Positions 182 through 5,300 of a stretch of 6,229 bases of DNA are shown one piece after another. The notes beneath the pieces are model-generated. The model did no database searches and was not told the DNA's origin. It saw only the letters and a list, made by a program, of their open reading frames with translations. The position numbers were made by a program, and so were the translations under genes. Source of the DNA: Desulfobacterales bacterium (lineage in GTDB: Bacteria > Desulfobacterota > Desulfobacteria > Desulfobacterales > ETH-SRB1); NCBI GenBank assembly GCA_030669465.1, contig DAOVDN010000075.1, positions 1 to 6,229 on the forward strand. Reading direction: 5' to 3'. Position 1 is the first letter of the stretch. Each line of letters begins with the position of its first letter.

Positions 182-553
182 TTATAAAACCATTCGTTTT
201 ATTCCGTTCTTCATGTATTTGACGTTAAAATTCATCAATAAACCGATCGATATGCCGGATAGCTTCATATATGTAAGCAATTGTGCTTGATGGATTGGTA
301 ATATCTTGTTTACACTCTTCAATTCAATAATTATGCTATTATCGACAAGAACGTCAATTCGATAACCACAATCGATCTTAATATCTTTGTATCGTACAGG
401 AAGTTGGTACTGCAATTTGAATGGCATGCCTGACATCTTGAGCTCGTGAGCAAAGCACTGTTCATAAGTTGATTCAAGTAACCCAGGTCCTAAATTCCGA
501 TGCACTTCTATAGCACATCCAATAACTCGGTTTGACAATTCATCAAATTCCAT
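182..553 (-). CDS. GxxExxY family protein (PD-(D/E)XK nuclease-like fold)
   Basis: This 123-residue protein carries the family's name motif as G24-LL-E27-ST-Y30, preceded by EVHRNLGPG. It is followed by the PD-(D/E)XK-like pattern: D67 in YRIDVLV, then E77 and K79 in IIELKS, and the glutamines of HQAQLLTYMKLSG. The end, LLMNFNVKYMKNGIKRMVL, is the usual complete C-terminus, so the gene is intact. The fold relates to the Holliday-resolvase/restriction-type nuclease superfamily, but no biological role is established for this family. I start at the ATG at 553. The frame continues upstream to 682, but that extension only translates the CACGAAG repeat (HHEEHEKHEG) and the end of gatA. The Shine-Dalgarno AAGGA for the 553 start lies at the repeat edge. 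The gene looks richer in A and T than the neighbouring gat genes, consistent with acquisition. It sits between 29-base inverted repeats. Confidence 0.93.
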   Translation of the reverse strand: MEFDELSNRVIGCAIEVHRNLGPGLLESTYEQCFAHELKMSGMPFKLQYQLPVRYKDIKIDCGYRIDVLVDNSIIIELKSVNKILPIHQAQLLTYMKLSGISIGLLMNFNVKYMKNGIKRMVL

Positions 554-563
554 TTTTTGTTTT

Positions 564-592
564 CCTTCGTGTTTTTCGTGTTCTTCGTGGTG
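564..592 (-). repeat. Right arm of inverted repeat flanking the GxxExxY gene; supplies its ribosome-binding site
   Basis: Read on the minus strand it is CACCACGAAG, AACACGAAAA, ACACGAAGG, matching 151-179 at 26 of 29 positions. Its last AAGG plus the next A forms the only plausible Shine-Dalgarno for the start at 553. The gatA stop codon ends 11 bases upstream of the arm (603), so the arm fills nearly the whole gap between the two genes. Confidence 0.85.
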
Positions 593-602
593 TAATCTGC
601 AT

Positions 603-2063
603 TTATATTGGTGCTTTTTGTTTATGAAAATCCGTTGCCTGCTCAAAATTGTAAGCCACCTTAAAAAGCTTTTGCTCATCAAAATGTCTTCCCATTATCT
701 GGAGGCCTATGGGAAGACCATTTGATGAAAACCCGCATGGAACCGACATGCCCGGGATTCCTGCAAGGTTTGCAGAAAGTGTAAATATGTCGGACAGATA
801 CATGGCAAGAGGATCCTCTGTTTTTTCTCCTATTCTGAATGCCGGTGTAGGCGTTGTGGGCGAAAGGATCACATCGCACTCTTTAAACGCATTATTAAAA
901 TCCTGCATGATCAGCGTGCGAACCCGCGATGCCTTGCGGTAATATGCGTCATAATAACCTGCGGAAAGGCAGTACGTTCCTATGATGATGCGGCGCTGGA
1001 CTTCCGGGCCGAATCCTTTGGATCTTGTGCTCTTGTACATCTCCATAAGGCTCTTTTTCTCTTTGTCCCTGAAGCCATACTTTACACCGTCGTACCTGGC
1101 AAGATTGGAGCTTGCCTCGGAAGGCGCAATTACATAATAGGCTGCAACAGCGTATTCAGTATGAGGCAGAGAAACTTCAATGCATTTTGCTCCCAGGTCT
1201 TCCATCACCCTGACAGCCTTTTTTACCGCATCCGCAACCTCCGAATCGAGGCCTCCGGCTTCACTGTATTCTTTTGGAATGCCCACCGTGATTTCGCTCA
1301 AACCATCTTTGAGAAAGGATGTATAATCCGGTACATCCATCGGCACAGATGTAGAGTCTTCTGGATCAAAACCGGAAATTACGTTCATCAGCACAGCACA
1401 ATCCGTGACATCTTTTGTCAGGGGGCCGATCTGGTCAAGAGATGAGGCAAAGGCTACAAGACCAAAGCGGGAGACTCTGCCATAGGTTGGTTTCATTCCG
1501 ACTACGCCGCAAAGAGACGCAGGCTGCCGTATGGACCCGCCTGTGTCCGAGCCGAGCGATCCCAGACACATGTCAGCGGCAACAGCCGCAGCAGACCCGC
1601 CGCTTGACCCGCCTGGAATACGGCTCAGATCCCATGGATTGCAGGTAATCTTTATGCCTGAGTTCTCAGTGGATGAGCCCATGGCAAATTCATCCATGTT
1701 TACCTTGCCGACAATAACGGCGCCCGCTTTTTTCAGCTTTTTTATCACAAATGCATCGTATGGAGGCACGAAGTTTTCAAGAATCTTTGATGCGCATGTT
1801 GTGCGAAGGCCCTCTGTGCAGATAAGATCCTTGATAGCCAGCGGGATGCCTGTAAGGGGTGAAATATTCCCTTCTGAAATTGCCCTGTCGGCAAGCCCTG
1901 CCTGCTCCATTGCCGTTTCACGGGCAATCGTAATATAGGCGCCCACTCTTTTTTCAACTGCGTCGATGCGGTCAAGAACAGCCCTGGTTAAGTCTATCGA
2001 AGATATCTCTTTTTTCTTTAAAAGTTTGCATGCCTTTTGTATGGTAAGTTCGTGCAGATTCAT
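603..2063 (-). CDS. gatA: Aspartyl/glutamyl-tRNA(Asn/Gln) amidotransferase subunit A
   Basis: GatA is the glutaminase subunit of GatCAB. It releases ammonia from glutamine so that GatB can amidate Glu-tRNA-Gln and/or Asp-tRNA-Asn in the cytosol. The 486-residue length is typical. The amidase-signature Ser-cisSer-Lys triad is complete: K78 in GIPLAIKDL, the cis-serine S153 in GGSSGGSAA, and the nucleophile S177 in [12 protein letters not shown] (roles assigned by offset from the numbering I recall for the Staphylococcus aureus enzyme). The conserved block [20 protein letters not shown] follows, and the C-terminal [20 protein letters not shown] is intact. The ATG at 2063 is one base after the gatC stop, with a Shine-Dalgarno-like AGGGTGAT inside the end of gatC, which suggests translational coupling. 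gatB is not in the window and must lie elsewhere, as is common in this lineage. No terminator is obvious after the TAA. Confidence 0.98.
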
Positions 2064-2064
2064 A

Positions 2065-2352
2065 TCACCCTATCACCTTCGGAACTATAAAATTCCCGTC
2101 CTCTTTTTCAGGGGCATTGGCAAGTGCCAGGTCCCTGTCAAGATGTTTTTTCAGCGTGTCTTCACGAAAGGCATTTGTCAAAGAAATCACATGCGAGGTC
2201 GGAGACACACCTTTTGTGTCAACACGGCTGAGCGTATCAACATATTCCAGTATATCGCCTATCTGACCGGCAAATTTGTCTATAGACTCTTCATCCAGTT
2301 CAAGACGGGCAAGATCTGCCACGTGAACAACTTCATCTTTGGTTATTTTCAT
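2065..2352 (-). CDS. gatC: Aspartyl/glutamyl-tRNA(Asn/Gln) amidotransferase subunit C
   Basis: GatC is the small subunit that wraps around the GatA-GatB interface and stabilises GatCAB. The 95-residue length is standard. The family pattern is clear from end to end: the N-terminal [13 protein letters not shown], then [25 protein letters not shown], then NAFREDT, and the C-terminal [21 protein letters not shown], where AP and F-VPKV are the hallmark residues. The ATG overlaps the stop codon of the SPOR gene as ATGA (2349-2352). One base separates its own TGA from the gatA start. This double coupling fits stoichiometric production of GatC and GatA from one message. Confidence 0.97.
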
Positions 2353-3035
2353 GGTATTCCTCCCACAATAAACCCCTTTAACCTCTCTTTTTTTAATTTG
2401 TTCAGGGTACTCCTTGCTTCAGCCTTTGTTTTGAAATCTCCTATCCTCACCCTGTACCAGATACCCTTTCCGGGAATCTTTGCGCTTGTTATGTATGCAT
2501 GGTATCCTTTTTTCATAAGTTTTTTCACTACCCTGTCGGCAGCCTCAGGCTTTTTTAATGAAGCGACCTGAATTGTAAAGTTTTTTCCGGCCTCATTCTT
2601 TTTGTCTAAAGCGGGCGCCTTTTCCTTTTTGGGCGCTTTGGCTGATCTGGTCTTTTCAGATTCGGTTTTTTTAGCCGGAGATTTTCTTTTTTGTTCGGAT
2701 ATCTCGGCATGCAGGCTGTTATACTCTTTTGTGCTGCCTCTGGTATCTTTCAGAGCCTCATAAAAACCGAGATTTGTTTTACTATCCGCAGCGTTGGGGT
2801 CGATTTTGAACCGGCCCAGTTCCTTCTTGATAACAGCTTCTTTTAAGGCAACCAGTTCTTTTTGAAGTTTTTCAATATCAAATTGTACCGGTGCAGTCCC
2901 TCTTCCTACAAAAATACCTAATATAAACATCCATGCAGAAGCAAAGAAGATTAAACAGAGCCACCCCCCAGTCCCTTTATCCATCAACCGAAAGGACCTT
3001 TTTTTCTTTTCCCGCGCTTTTTTTTTATTTTCCAT
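2349..3035 (-). CDS. Membrane-anchored SPOR-domain protein
   Basis: From the ATG at 3035 this is a 228-residue protein. It has a short lysine/arginine-rich cytoplasmic tail (residues 1-20), one membrane segment (about 23-44, GWLCLIFFASAWMFILGIFV), a helical stretch (52-72), a low-complexity Lys/Glu/Ala/Ser linker (about 115-150) and a C-terminal SPOR domain (about 152-224, FTIQVASLKKPEAADRVV to WYRVRIGDFKTKAEAR). SPOR domains bind septal glycan lacking stem peptides, so a role in cell division or envelope remodelling is likely; the exact partner is unknown. The frame can be extended to a TTG at 3068, but that reads through the CACCAAGA repeat. The promoter at 3078-3105 would put the transcript start near 3071, leaving almost no leader for the TTG, so the ATG is preferred. 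Its Shine-Dalgarno is weak. It overlaps gatC by 4 bases. Link to tRNA amidation: none known, only co-location. Confidence 0.92.
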   Translation of the reverse strand: MENKKKAREKKKRSFRLMDKGTGGWLCLIFFASAWMFILGIFVGRGTAPVQFDIEKLQKELVALKEAVIKKELGRFKIDPNAADSKTNLGFYEALKDTRGSTKEYNSLHAEISEQKRKSPAKKTESEKTRSAKAPKKEKAPALDKKNEAGKNFTIQVASLKKPEAADRVVKKLMKKGYHAYITSAKIPGKGIWYRVRIGDFKTKAEARSTLNKLKKERLKGFIVGGIP

Positions 3036-3054
3036 AATTTCGTAATAGTTCAGC

Positions 3055-3078
3055 CACAAAGACACCAAGACACCAAGA
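3055..3078 (+). repeat. Three 8-base tandem units, CACAAAGA then CACCAAGA twice
   Basis: A short direct repeat just upstream of the SPOR gene, overlapping the -10 edge of its promoter by one base. It is the same general class as the CACGAAG and CGCAAAG arrays elsewhere in the window. I found no inverted partner for it here. Confidence 0.75.
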
Positions 3079-3105
3079 TTATAATATAATTCTGTAAGTT
3101 CTCAA
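3078..3105 (-). promoter_or_regulatory. Strong sigma70-type promoter for SPOR-gatC-gatA
   Basis: On the minus strand TTGAGA (3105-3100, five of six consensus bases), a 16-base spacer and a perfect TATAAT (3083-3078). Transcription would begin near 3071, about 36 bases before the ATG at 3035. It lies between the MITE and the gene, so it could keep the downstream genes expressed independently of argS. The -35 falls inside the 7-4-7 direct repeat at 3094-3112. No experiment supports it; the match to consensus is the evidence. Confidence 0.6.
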
Positions 3106-3174
3106 TAAGTTCCGGAGGAGCCCACTGGTGAGCGAGTCTTTTATCATTTTCACCCGAACTTATTGAGAACTTAC
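3094..3174. repeat. 81-base inverted repeat with 19-base perfect arms; possible operator dyad or hairpin
   Basis: Arms at 3094-3112 and 3156-3174 are perfect inverted copies, with 43 bases between. On the minus strand the proximal arm reads GAACTTATTGAGAACTTAC, which is GAACTTA, four bases, GAACTTA: a direct repeat with an 11-base period. The proximal arm overlaps the -35 of the SPOR promoter and ends 10 bases from the TATAAT. The arm centres are 62 bases apart, close to six helical turns. It could be a regulator-binding pair or an RNA hairpin; there is no T-run after it on the minus strand, so a simple terminator is unlikely. Confidence 0.75.
3167..3174 (+). repeat. Target-site duplication, left copy (GAACTTAC)
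   Basis: Eight bases abutting the left end of the inverted-repeat-bounded element, identical to 3509-3516. They also form the last eight bases of the distal arm of the dyad, so the insertion site was the edge of that arm. Confidence 0.75.
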
Positions 3175-3260
3175 GGTAATCCCTACAAAACAGTGCGGGT
3201 CAATAATTTCAAAATGTTATACATCATGGCTCCCGGCAGCGCATGACGAAAAATAAAGAT

Positions 3261-3300
3261 GAACGTCCAACATCGAACATCGAACGTCCAACATCGAATG
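3261..3300 (+). repeat. 7-base tandem array (GAACGTC / CAACATC / GAACATC), left block
   Basis: Five consecutive 7-base units, GAACGTC, CAACATC, GAACATC, GAACGTC, CAACATC, then GAATG. Bases 3269-3300 are a perfect 32-base inverted copy of 3438-3469. This block has one more unit than the right block. Confidence 0.85.
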
Positions 3301-3330
3301 AAAGACAAACATTCAATACCGAACATTCAA

Positions 3331-3349
3331 CATTCGATGTTCATCTTTT
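3331..3349 (-). repeat. Third, shortened copy of the array end
   Basis: On the minus strand it reads AAAAGATGAAC then ATCGAATG, the same beginning and end as the right block but with the middle units missing. It looks like a collapsed copy or an unequal-recombination product inside the element. Confidence 0.55.
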
Positions 3350-3369
3350 TCAGAATTAATTCCTTCTAA

Positions 3370-3415
3370 CGACGGTTTTCGTCGGGTGAACCTGCCTTCG
3401 GCAGAACCTCCCGAC
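3370..3415. repeat. Central compound hairpin of the MITE-like element
   Basis: CGACG (3370-3374) pairs with CGTCG (3380-3384). GTCGGG (3381-3386) pairs with CCCGAC (3410-3415) and encloses CTGCC (3392-3396), TTC, GGCAG (3400-3404). The first and second stems share 3381-3384 and are mutually exclusive. No T-run follows on either strand. Confidence 0.6.
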
Positions 3416-3437
3416 CTACTTATCTTTTCCCATTCAG

Positions 3438-3470
3438 CATTCGATGTTGGACGTTCGATGTTCGATGTTC
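3438..3470 (-). repeat. 7-base tandem array, right block (inverted relative to the left block)
   Basis: On the minus strand GAACATC twice, GAACGTC, CAACATC, then GAATG. It is preceded by AAGGA, four bases, ATG, so it starts a 12-codon frame translating as MNIEHRTSNIEC and ending in TGA. The coding look comes from the 7-base period (21 bases, 7 codons); I do not regard it as a gene. Confidence 0.85.
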
Positions 3471-3508
3471 ATCTTTTCCTTAACCTGCACTGCTTTGTAG
3501 GGACTACC

Positions 3509-3516
3509 GAACTTAC
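3509..3516 (+). repeat. Target-site duplication, right copy (GAACTTAC)
   Basis: Identical to 3167-3174 and directly abutting the right terminal inverted repeat. It is followed by 12 bases and then the argS stop codon. Confidence 0.75.
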
Positions 3517-3528
3517 ACCTGTATTTCC

Positions 3529-5196
3529 TCACATCCTCTCCGGTGCAGTCACCCCCAGGAGGGTGAGGCCGTTTCTTATGACCTTTTTAACCGCAAGCAC
3601 AAGATAGAGCCTGCCGCCGGTCAATAGAGGATCGTCTGTCAGGACTCTGTGTTTATTGTAGTAAGCATGAAAAGAGGACGCAAGATCCATCAGATAAAAT
3701 GTTATGCGATGTGGTTCCATAAACTCTGCACTGCATCTTACCACCTCCGGATAACGGGCCATGGCTTTAATCAGATGTATCTCCTCGGGCTCTTTCAGCA
3801 TGGCTACCGCCCTGTTATCCCAGGCGGCTATACTGCTTATTCCCCTTTCCTGCCCCTTGCGGACAATGCTCGATATCCTGGCATGCACGTATTGAACGTA
3901 AAAAACAGGATTTTCGTTTGTCTTTTTCTTTGCAACCTCAAGGTCGAAATCCAGAGGGCTCTCATAATGACGCGTCAGGAAAATGAACCTTGCCGCATCA
4001 GGTCCCACTTCGCTGATTACGTCTCTTAGAGTAACGAATTCACCGGCTCTGGTCGACATGGCAACAGGCTCTCCTCCGCGTAATAGATTGACAAGCTGAA
4101 CCAGAATCACATTAAACTGATTCTTGCTGCGACCGGAAGCCTCTATTGAAGCCGTTATGCGCGGAATATATCCGTGGTGATCAGCGCCCCACACATCTAT
4201 AACCCGTTCAAACCCGCGGTCAAACTTGTCCTGGTGGTATGCTATGTCTGAAGCAAAATATGTTGTCTGGCCGTTATTGCGGACAACCACGCGGTCCTTT
4301 TCATCTCCAAAATCTTTGGTTCTAAACCATAGGGCTCCGTCCTTTTCATATACGAGATTCCGGCTGCGAAGATCATTTAAAACTTTGTCAACCTTGCCGG
4401 AATCATAAAGGCTCTGTTCGCTGTACCACTGGTCGAATGTAACGCCAAAGAGTTCCAGATCCTTTTTGATATCATCAATAATATTGCCAGCGGCATACCG
4501 TGCGCAATAATTTACAGCATATGCTTCATCCTTCTTGACAAGCTCGTCACCTTTATTTTTTCGCACCTCTTCGGCAAACTCGCGAATATAATCACCCTGA
4601 TAGCAGTTCTCAGGAAACTCGATTTTTTCTCCAAGCAGCTCCTTATACCGCAAAAAAACAGAACGTCCCAGTGTGTTTATCTGCCTGCCCGAGTCGTTTA
4701 TATAATACTCTTTTTTAACATCATATCCGCAAAACAAAAGAATATTTGCCACAGCATCCCCTACAGCGGCGCCTCTGCCGTGCCCTACATGAAGCGGCCC
4801 TGTTGGATTGGAGCTTACAAATTCCACCTGGATTTTTTTTCCGTTTCCGATATTCGAAGCGCCGTATCTTGTATCTTCTTTGTGAATCCTGCGCAAAACA
4901 GAATGCCAGGACATTCTATTTATGAAAAAATTAATAAAGCCCGGACCTGCGATCTGGGTTTTTGCAAGTATTCCGTTATGGTCGATCATATGCTTTATGA
5001 TTGTTGTTGCAATTTTCTTAGGCGGCATTTTCTGGATAGATGCCATAATCATGGCAATGTTTGTCGAAAAATCACCGTGTGGCTCTATCTTGGGCACCTC
5101 GATTTCCACGTCAGGAAAGACTGATGACGGCAATTCTCCATTTTCATATGCACCTGTCATTGCTGAAAGTATCAAATTTTTTATTCTTTGCTTCAT
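3529..5196 (-). CDS. argS: Arginyl-tRNA synthetase
   Basis: A class I aminoacyl-tRNA synthetase that charges tRNA-Arg with arginine in the cytosol. From the ATG at 5196 it has 555 residues, normal for bacterial ArgS. In order: the N-terminal tRNA D-loop recognition domain (about 1-95, with [15 protein letters not shown]), the catalytic fold with the HIGH motif as H136-VGH in [23 protein letters not shown], the [12 protein letters not shown] block (335-346), and the KMSKS-equivalent loop [12 protein letters not shown] (379-390), degenerate as usual in ArgS. The DALR-type anticodon domain ends in the typical LGVTAPERM. The frame stays open to an ATG at 5295, but the extra 33 residues do not resemble ArgS and would cover the promoter at 5272-5300. 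[10 protein letters not shown] is the usual ArgS opening, so 5196 is preferred. The C-terminus is intact despite the nearby MITE. Confidence 0.98.
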
Positions 5197-5271
5197 TTTG
5201 TTATAAATTCCGACTTGTGCGGTTGCGGTTACGAAACTACTCAAAATTAATGGTTCTTTTTTTGCTTCCAA

Positions 5272-5300
5272 TTCATAAAGACTTTTTATTTCCAAGTCAA
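5272..5300 (-). promoter_or_regulatory. Candidate sigma70 promoter of argS
   Basis: On the minus strand TTGACT (5300-5295), a 17-base spacer and TATGAA (5277-5272): five and four of six consensus bases. It would start a leader of roughly 70 bases ahead of the ATG at 5196. It overlaps the start of the longer argS reading frame, which argues against the upstream ATG at 5295. Confidence 0.45.

Follow-up and report, generated by a model that had tools for sequence, protein, structure and literature searches.

IS elements of the IS1 family generate target duplications of 8–9 bp, and duplications of 8 bp are also made by elements of the ISL3, IS6 and IS66 types. Several short passengers of IS elements have been described. 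In Acinetobacter, the mobile element MITEAba12 has a length of 111–114 bp and ends which match those of a coresident IS, and 40% of its 90 copies retain duplications; passages of the same paper also describe an insert flanked by elements most similar to the IS1-family ISAba3, with 24-bp ends that begin GGTGGTG and duplications of 8 bp (PMC6382973). A MITE of 187 nt from Microcystis has 8-nt duplications and was assigned to an IS on the basis of its ends (PMC11448079). The element described here, from a contig of a Desulfobacterales bacterium, resembles MITEAba12 in being a short mobile element with IS-matched ends, but the helper of MITEAba12 is ISAba12 and its duplications are of 9 bp, whereas the present family is of IS1 type with 8 bp (PMC6382973). 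The Microcystis MITE differs in its ISL3 type and its GGCTCTTCG ends (PMC11448079). The SM3A and SMN1 MITEs of Sulfolobus, which were compared by description and not by sequence, are likewise passengers which have no gene and rely on the transposase of an IS, but their helpers are ISC1058 and ISC1733 (PMC3718332). The family itself is not described in the passages of PMC11448079, PMC6382973 and PMC3718332 to which a literature search on MITEs and the IS1 family led. In the open-licence literature, no paper contained the string GTAGTCCCTACAAA, and no paper was found on MITEs in Desulfobacter- taxa or Desulfobacterales. These results make it a new MITE family of a well-known kind, mostly in sulfate-reducing bacteria, and the partner IS may already stand in ISfinder.

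The whole stretch of DNA that was analysed (6,229 bases; hereafter the window) carries an element of 334 bp at positions 3175–3508. Its left terminal inverted repeat, GGTAATCCCTACAAAACAGTGCGGGT (3175–3200, plus strand), has an end motif found in 25 assemblies and is identical at 23 of 26 positions to the reverse complement of the right one (3483–3508, minus strand). The sequence GAACTTAC abuts both ends as an 8-bp direct repeat (3167–3174 and 3509–3516). Upon re-measurement, the 26-base ends and the perfect 8-base duplication were exactly as reported in the earlier note. They form the single case in the window of inverted ends with at least 23/26 identity and an abutting 8-bp direct repeat; three more inverted structures reach 23/26 (approximately 151–592, 3094–3174 and 3255–3476), all of them without a duplication. 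None of 30 two-base-block shuffles of the window contained any inverted pair at 23/26; even when 3 mismatches were allowed, the end motif did not appear in any of 200 dinucleotide shuffles. The statement that no substantial ORF lies inside holds in so far as any ORF located wholly within the element is shorter than 60 aa, but a 73-aa ORF (3386–3607) overlaps its right half and extends past its end. A search of Rfam gave no match at gathering thresholds, and the 334 bp had none in plasmid and phage collections; the end motif was present in one stretch among viral contigs.

The usual form of the family is 143 bp in length, and both this form and the 334-bp copy lie below the approximately 500 bp expected of a MITE. 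When the window copy is aligned with a MITE consensus built from 48 copies, 3175–3254 (plus strand) corresponds to consensus bases 1–80 with 68/80 identities (85%), and 3482–3508 (plus strand) is identical to consensus bases 117–143 (27/27). The 36 consensus bases in between (81–116) are substituted by an inverted repeat at 3255–3476 together with 5 bases. The window copy is a composite, i.e., a MITE of the 143-bp type with a foreign 222-bp palindromic repeat inside.

Further copies in other genomes, which the earlier note had proposed to look for, were revealed with the end pattern GGTARTCCCTACAAARCAGTG in a one-genome-per-species collection, where it was present at 56 stretches belonging to 25 assemblies (counted by accession prefix). 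The genomes G001–G025 correspond to 27 of these 56 loci. According to the record titles, most of these assemblies are Desulfobacterales, Desulfobacteraceae, Desulfococcaceae or "Deltaproteobacteria", and the others include cyanobacteria, a Bacteroidales, a Thiomargarita, a Methylococcaceae and a Methanococcoides. The cyanobacterial loci with the exact motif (Pleurocapsa, Crocosphaera and Xenococcaceae) have one end only. Since most of the motif-bearing assemblies are MAGs, some of the loci may lie on stray contigs. When up to 2 mismatches were allowed, the motif was found in 15/15 genomes of one set and 11/11 of another (one genome, G002, belongs to both), and the reversed pattern in none of either set. 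At this threshold there are 86 ends in the 3.5-Mb genome G004 and 100 in the Bacteroidales genome G011, again with no instance of the reversed pattern. Allowing 3 mismatches raises the count in G004 to 95 ends, with one instance of the reversed pattern, and 62 of the 95 ends form 31 end pairs. The family has about 30 or more two-ended copies in a single genome of a sulfate-reducer group and is linked here to a probable IS1-type helper. The presence of the same ends in Bacteroidales and cyanobacterial assemblies and in one Methanococcoides assembly suggests that the system may cross phyla, provided that binning errors are excluded. The Bacteroidales genome has 59 end motifs on the reverse strand, and 33 of them begin at a distance of 26–44 bases from the start of a contig, a pattern to be expected where a repeated element interrupts the assembly.

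For the analysis of target duplications, two-ended copies were defined by at most 5 mismatches per 22-base end and a length under about 440 bp. The 56 stretches, the 31 pairs of G004 and the window together provided 60 distinct elements with a 10-base flank on each side, of which 37 are exactly 143 bp long. An exact 8-bp direct repeat borders 11 of the 60, and no two of the 11 duplications have the same sequence; the earlier note had named such copies, alike in their ends but each with its own 8-base duplication, as support for a MITE. Exact repeats of 5, 6, 7, 9 or 10 bp border none. Near-matching 8-bp flanks were seen in no copy with 1 or 2 mismatches and in five with 3. When the right flanks were shuffled among the elements, the mean number of exact 8-bp matches was 0.2 and the largest was 3, as compared with the 11 observed. 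The remaining 49 MITE copies lack an exact 8-bp duplication.

The flanks of 79 MITE ends in G004 and of 37 IS ends in G081, the genome of the partner element described below, are similar in composition when the two sets are compared with each other, in outline (C/G)AAWWTT(C/G). The duplication of the window, GAACTTAC, fits this outline loosely. Odd inverted flanks at two loci (L002 and L007) proved not to be above the level of shuffled pairs, with 2/60 at up to one mismatch against a null mean of 0.3 and a null maximum of 4. A search for duplications common to different copies, as would follow replicative rearrangement, gave one pair among the 37 ends of G081 (null mean 0.04, at most 1) and one cross-copy pair among the 79 ends of G004 (null mean 0.7, null maximum 4); G004 had 9 matching pairs altogether, 8 of which join both ends of a single element. 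Identical-flank pairs in G004 numbered two in the same search (null mean 0.7, at most 6).

The full-length partner is an IS1-type element of 1,222 bp which has the same 26-bp ends on both sides and is present in G081, a genome that matches Desulfosarcina sp. BuS5. Its ends are typically GGTAGTCCCTACAAAACAATGCAGGT. This genome contains 37 end motifs at up to 3 mismatches, with no occurrence of the reversed pattern, and 11 two-ended IS copies of 878–1,455 bp, five of which are 1,222–1,223 bp long. The stop-free frame extends up to 352 codons. Its product matches PF03400 (E value 1.4e-12; 48.6 bits), passing the cut-off of 24.1, and NF033558 (IS1 family transposase; E value 1.1e-17; 64.6 bits), below the NCBIfam cut-off of 100, and for that reason the element is called IS1-type here and is not filed as that equivalog. 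With the IS1 family, it has in common the matches to both models and ends which start with GGT, and 8-bp duplications were observed at its presumed passengers; it is unlike in that its 352-codon frame contrasts with a model of 199 positions. No exact 8-bp duplication was found at the 11 two-ended IS copies in G081, one of which has flanks with 2 mismatches, and the duplications belong to the presumed passengers (11/60 exact). The lack of exact duplications at 49/60 MITE and 11/11 IS copies might be due to age, to recombination between copies or to rearrangement. In addition to the ends, the 143-bp consensus and the IS have in common one stretch of 25 nt (84%) located just inside the right end.

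IS1-type frames also adjoin the same ends in three Desulfobacterales loci (L063, L165 and L166), one Bacteroidales locus (L155) and one cyanobacterial locus (L149). In a Pfam scan of six shorter frames beside ends, five matched PF03400 at E values up to 0.01, two of them above the cut-off, and in an NCBIfam scan of five such frames, three matched NF033558, all below its cut-off. A protein search with the L063 frame retrieved 126 proteins, and nine of the best 120 are named IS1 family transposase by a source. One protein named for Desulfosarcina sp. BuS5 (P0119) was found in G081 at 100% identity, and a search with it in 379 genomes of the order gave matches in 5 at E values up to 1e-20. An IS with matching ends, which the earlier note had likewise listed as support, is therefore available, and the family which that note could not name is assigned to the IS1 type through a partner with the same 26-bp ends. 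Its reading as a MITE is supported by the repeated family, the 8-bp duplications and the IS with the same ends, the latter in other genomes.

Given the ends, the fixed 8-bp duplications, the copy number, the full-length IS with the same ends and the similar flanks, we consider it very likely that the element is a non-autonomous DNA transposon (MITE), the ends of which would be recognised in trans by the IS1-type transposase of a longer element that shares these ends. The passenger was probably moved by that transposase. The steps and the chemistry of transposition which we infer from sequence comparison are as follows. The transposase, encoded in a single frame of about 340 residues, would recognise the two 26-bp ends of the gene-less MITE in trans. 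It would insert the MITE, often at AT-rich sites of the outline (C/G)AAWWTT(C/G), by joints staggered by 8 bases in the target DNA, and repair of the gaps would leave the 8-bp duplication, here GAACTTAC. The middle of the window copy would have been replaced by the 222-bp palindromic repeat either before or after its move. A transposase of another family which makes 8-bp duplications, e.g., ISL3, IS6 or IS66, might have moved the MITE instead, the likeness of its ends to those of the IS1-type element being incidental. The IS1-type element, however, bears the full 26-bp ends on both sides and has similar flanks, frames of its type are located beside the same ends in Desulfobacterales, Bacteroidales and cyanobacterial loci, and no other transposase flanked by both ends was found among the loci examined. 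Such a helper is accordingly improbable in our estimation, even though the IS1-type partner is known from genomes other than the host of the window, none of its 11 copies has an exact duplication, two lone ends (L011 and L018) adjoin transposase-like frames which by eye have another look, and an ISL3-linked MITE has 8-nt repeats according to passages of PMC11448079.

There is very little likelihood that the element is an internally deleted, decayed copy of the IS itself and does not belong to an amplified family of MITEs. A 316-bp element at another locus (L020) seems by eye to retain the start of the transposase gene, as would be consistent with decay. The idea is largely refuted by the alignment of the window to the 143-bp consensus over 80 + 27 bases (85% and 100%), by the single 25-nt stretch that the IS and the consensus share past the ends, and by the 37/60 copies of exactly 143 bp. 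Still less credence can be given to the idea that the structure is a hairpin repeat of the chromosome (REP/BIME or terminator-like) which never transposed and whose ends and flanks match by chance. Exact 8-bp duplications in 11/60 copies, against 0.2 by shuffling, and the absence of the element from the spacers of 17 relatives refute it, although the sequence has a strong fold as single-stranded DNA (-77.6 kcal/mol; z -12.7) and two terminator-like stems are present in 3030–3560, where 0.6 are expected. With the family defined, annotators could recognise such spacers as insertions and not as regulatory hairpins.

The MITE is located in the spacer between argS, which encodes arginyl-tRNA synthetase (3529–5295, minus strand) and precedes the spacer in the reading direction, and a gene for a SPOR-domain protein (2349–3068, minus strand), which follows it. 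The latter is in turn followed by gatC (2065–2352) and gatA, of the amidase family (603–2063). Relatives of the SPOR protein are present in 369 of 389 genomes of the order, with a best identity of 60% among the matches listed. Twenty loci were fetched, and 17 of them had both argS and SPOR matches; the three with no argS match (L172, L181 and L186) were left out. The argS-SPOR spacer measures from -10 to 328 bases in the 17 relatives versus 493 in the window, and MITE ends were absent from all 17 spacer sequences as read. The comparison with an empty site proposed in the earlier note was therefore answered in part: 0/17 spacers carry the element, but a near-identical site with a single GAACTTAC was not among them, the relatives being distant (SPOR identity at most 60% among the matches listed). 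In several relatives argS and the SPOR gene nearly touch or overlap, so the element may affect co-transcription and, with it, expression of argS-SPOR-gatCA. One promoter-like site is found in 3030–3560 (1.1 expected).

The left copy of GAACTTAC at the same time forms the final 8 bases of another MITE-like element, of 81 bp (3094–3174) and unrelated to the first. This second element is an inverted repeat with ends GTAAGTTCTCAATAAGTTCSGG and 22-nt arms (95%), and the 334-bp MITE is inserted into its right end. The family to which this second element belongs has the ends GTAASTTCTCAAWAWGTTCSGG and is also represented at L316, L319 and L324. With up to 3 mismatches, its end motif was found in 14/20 genomes, with 154 occurrences in G071, while the reversed pattern was found once in one genome and not in the other 19. 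Duplications of 8 bp are present at 2 of 10 two-ended pairs, three of which are overlapping combinations at L324 and one of which is that of the window; the window copy has no duplication of its own. The GTAA ends of this family are reminiscent of IS66.

The foreign repeat within the 334-bp MITE (3255–3476) is an inverted array of GAACATC/GAACGTCC words of 222 bp, with 46-nt arms that are 78% complementary and a 32-nt core identical between the arms (100%). The word CGAACGTCCAACATCGAA, with up to one mismatch, occurs in 16/20 genomes, up to 131 times, and its reversed pattern in none. By eye, the start of the MITE is joined to the word array also at L307 and L054, near MITE base 50, and no right MITE end was found at these two loci. 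We put forward, tentatively and as a rather doubtful proposal, that the 222-bp repeat might be a gene-less copy of an undescribed mobile unit. In such a unit, two arrays of a short degenerate word would stand in inverted orientation. Other copies would enclose one small gene between the arrays, for a four-helix protein of the 23S-rRNA-intervening-sequence type or, with other words, for the GxxExxY protein of the window (182–682), and, having no transposase, the unit may move as RNA or folded DNA.

Word arrays were also observed at other sites. At L340 (1489–1991), they flank the gene of a 23S rRNA intervening-sequence protein (TIGR02436, E value 1.1e-23; PF05635, E value 6.8e-13). In a sample of PF05635 loci (L353–L382; 30 fetched from 8 genomes, 28 usable), imperfect inverted repeats around the gene were above the 95% level of mismatched pairs at 18 of the 28 and above the 99% level at 2, and by eye most of the arms are arrays of a short word which varies by locus. 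Within the window, inverted CACGAAG word arrays at 151–592 bracket a GxxExxY gene (PDDEXK_3; TIGR04256) at 182–682. This structure has an inverted-repeat score of 26, as compared with a 95% level of 12 and a maximum of 23 in 500 random window pairs, and it is of the same architecture as the word-array-flanked gene of L340, with another gene and another word. The argS-SPOR spacers of two relatives (L182 and L176) contain, by eye, inverted arrays of other words, GGAATATTGGAATGATGG and AGCACGAAAT, which suggests that this spacer has gathered such repeats more than once. A third relative (L171) has a GAACATC word array of its own in the argS-SPOR spacer.
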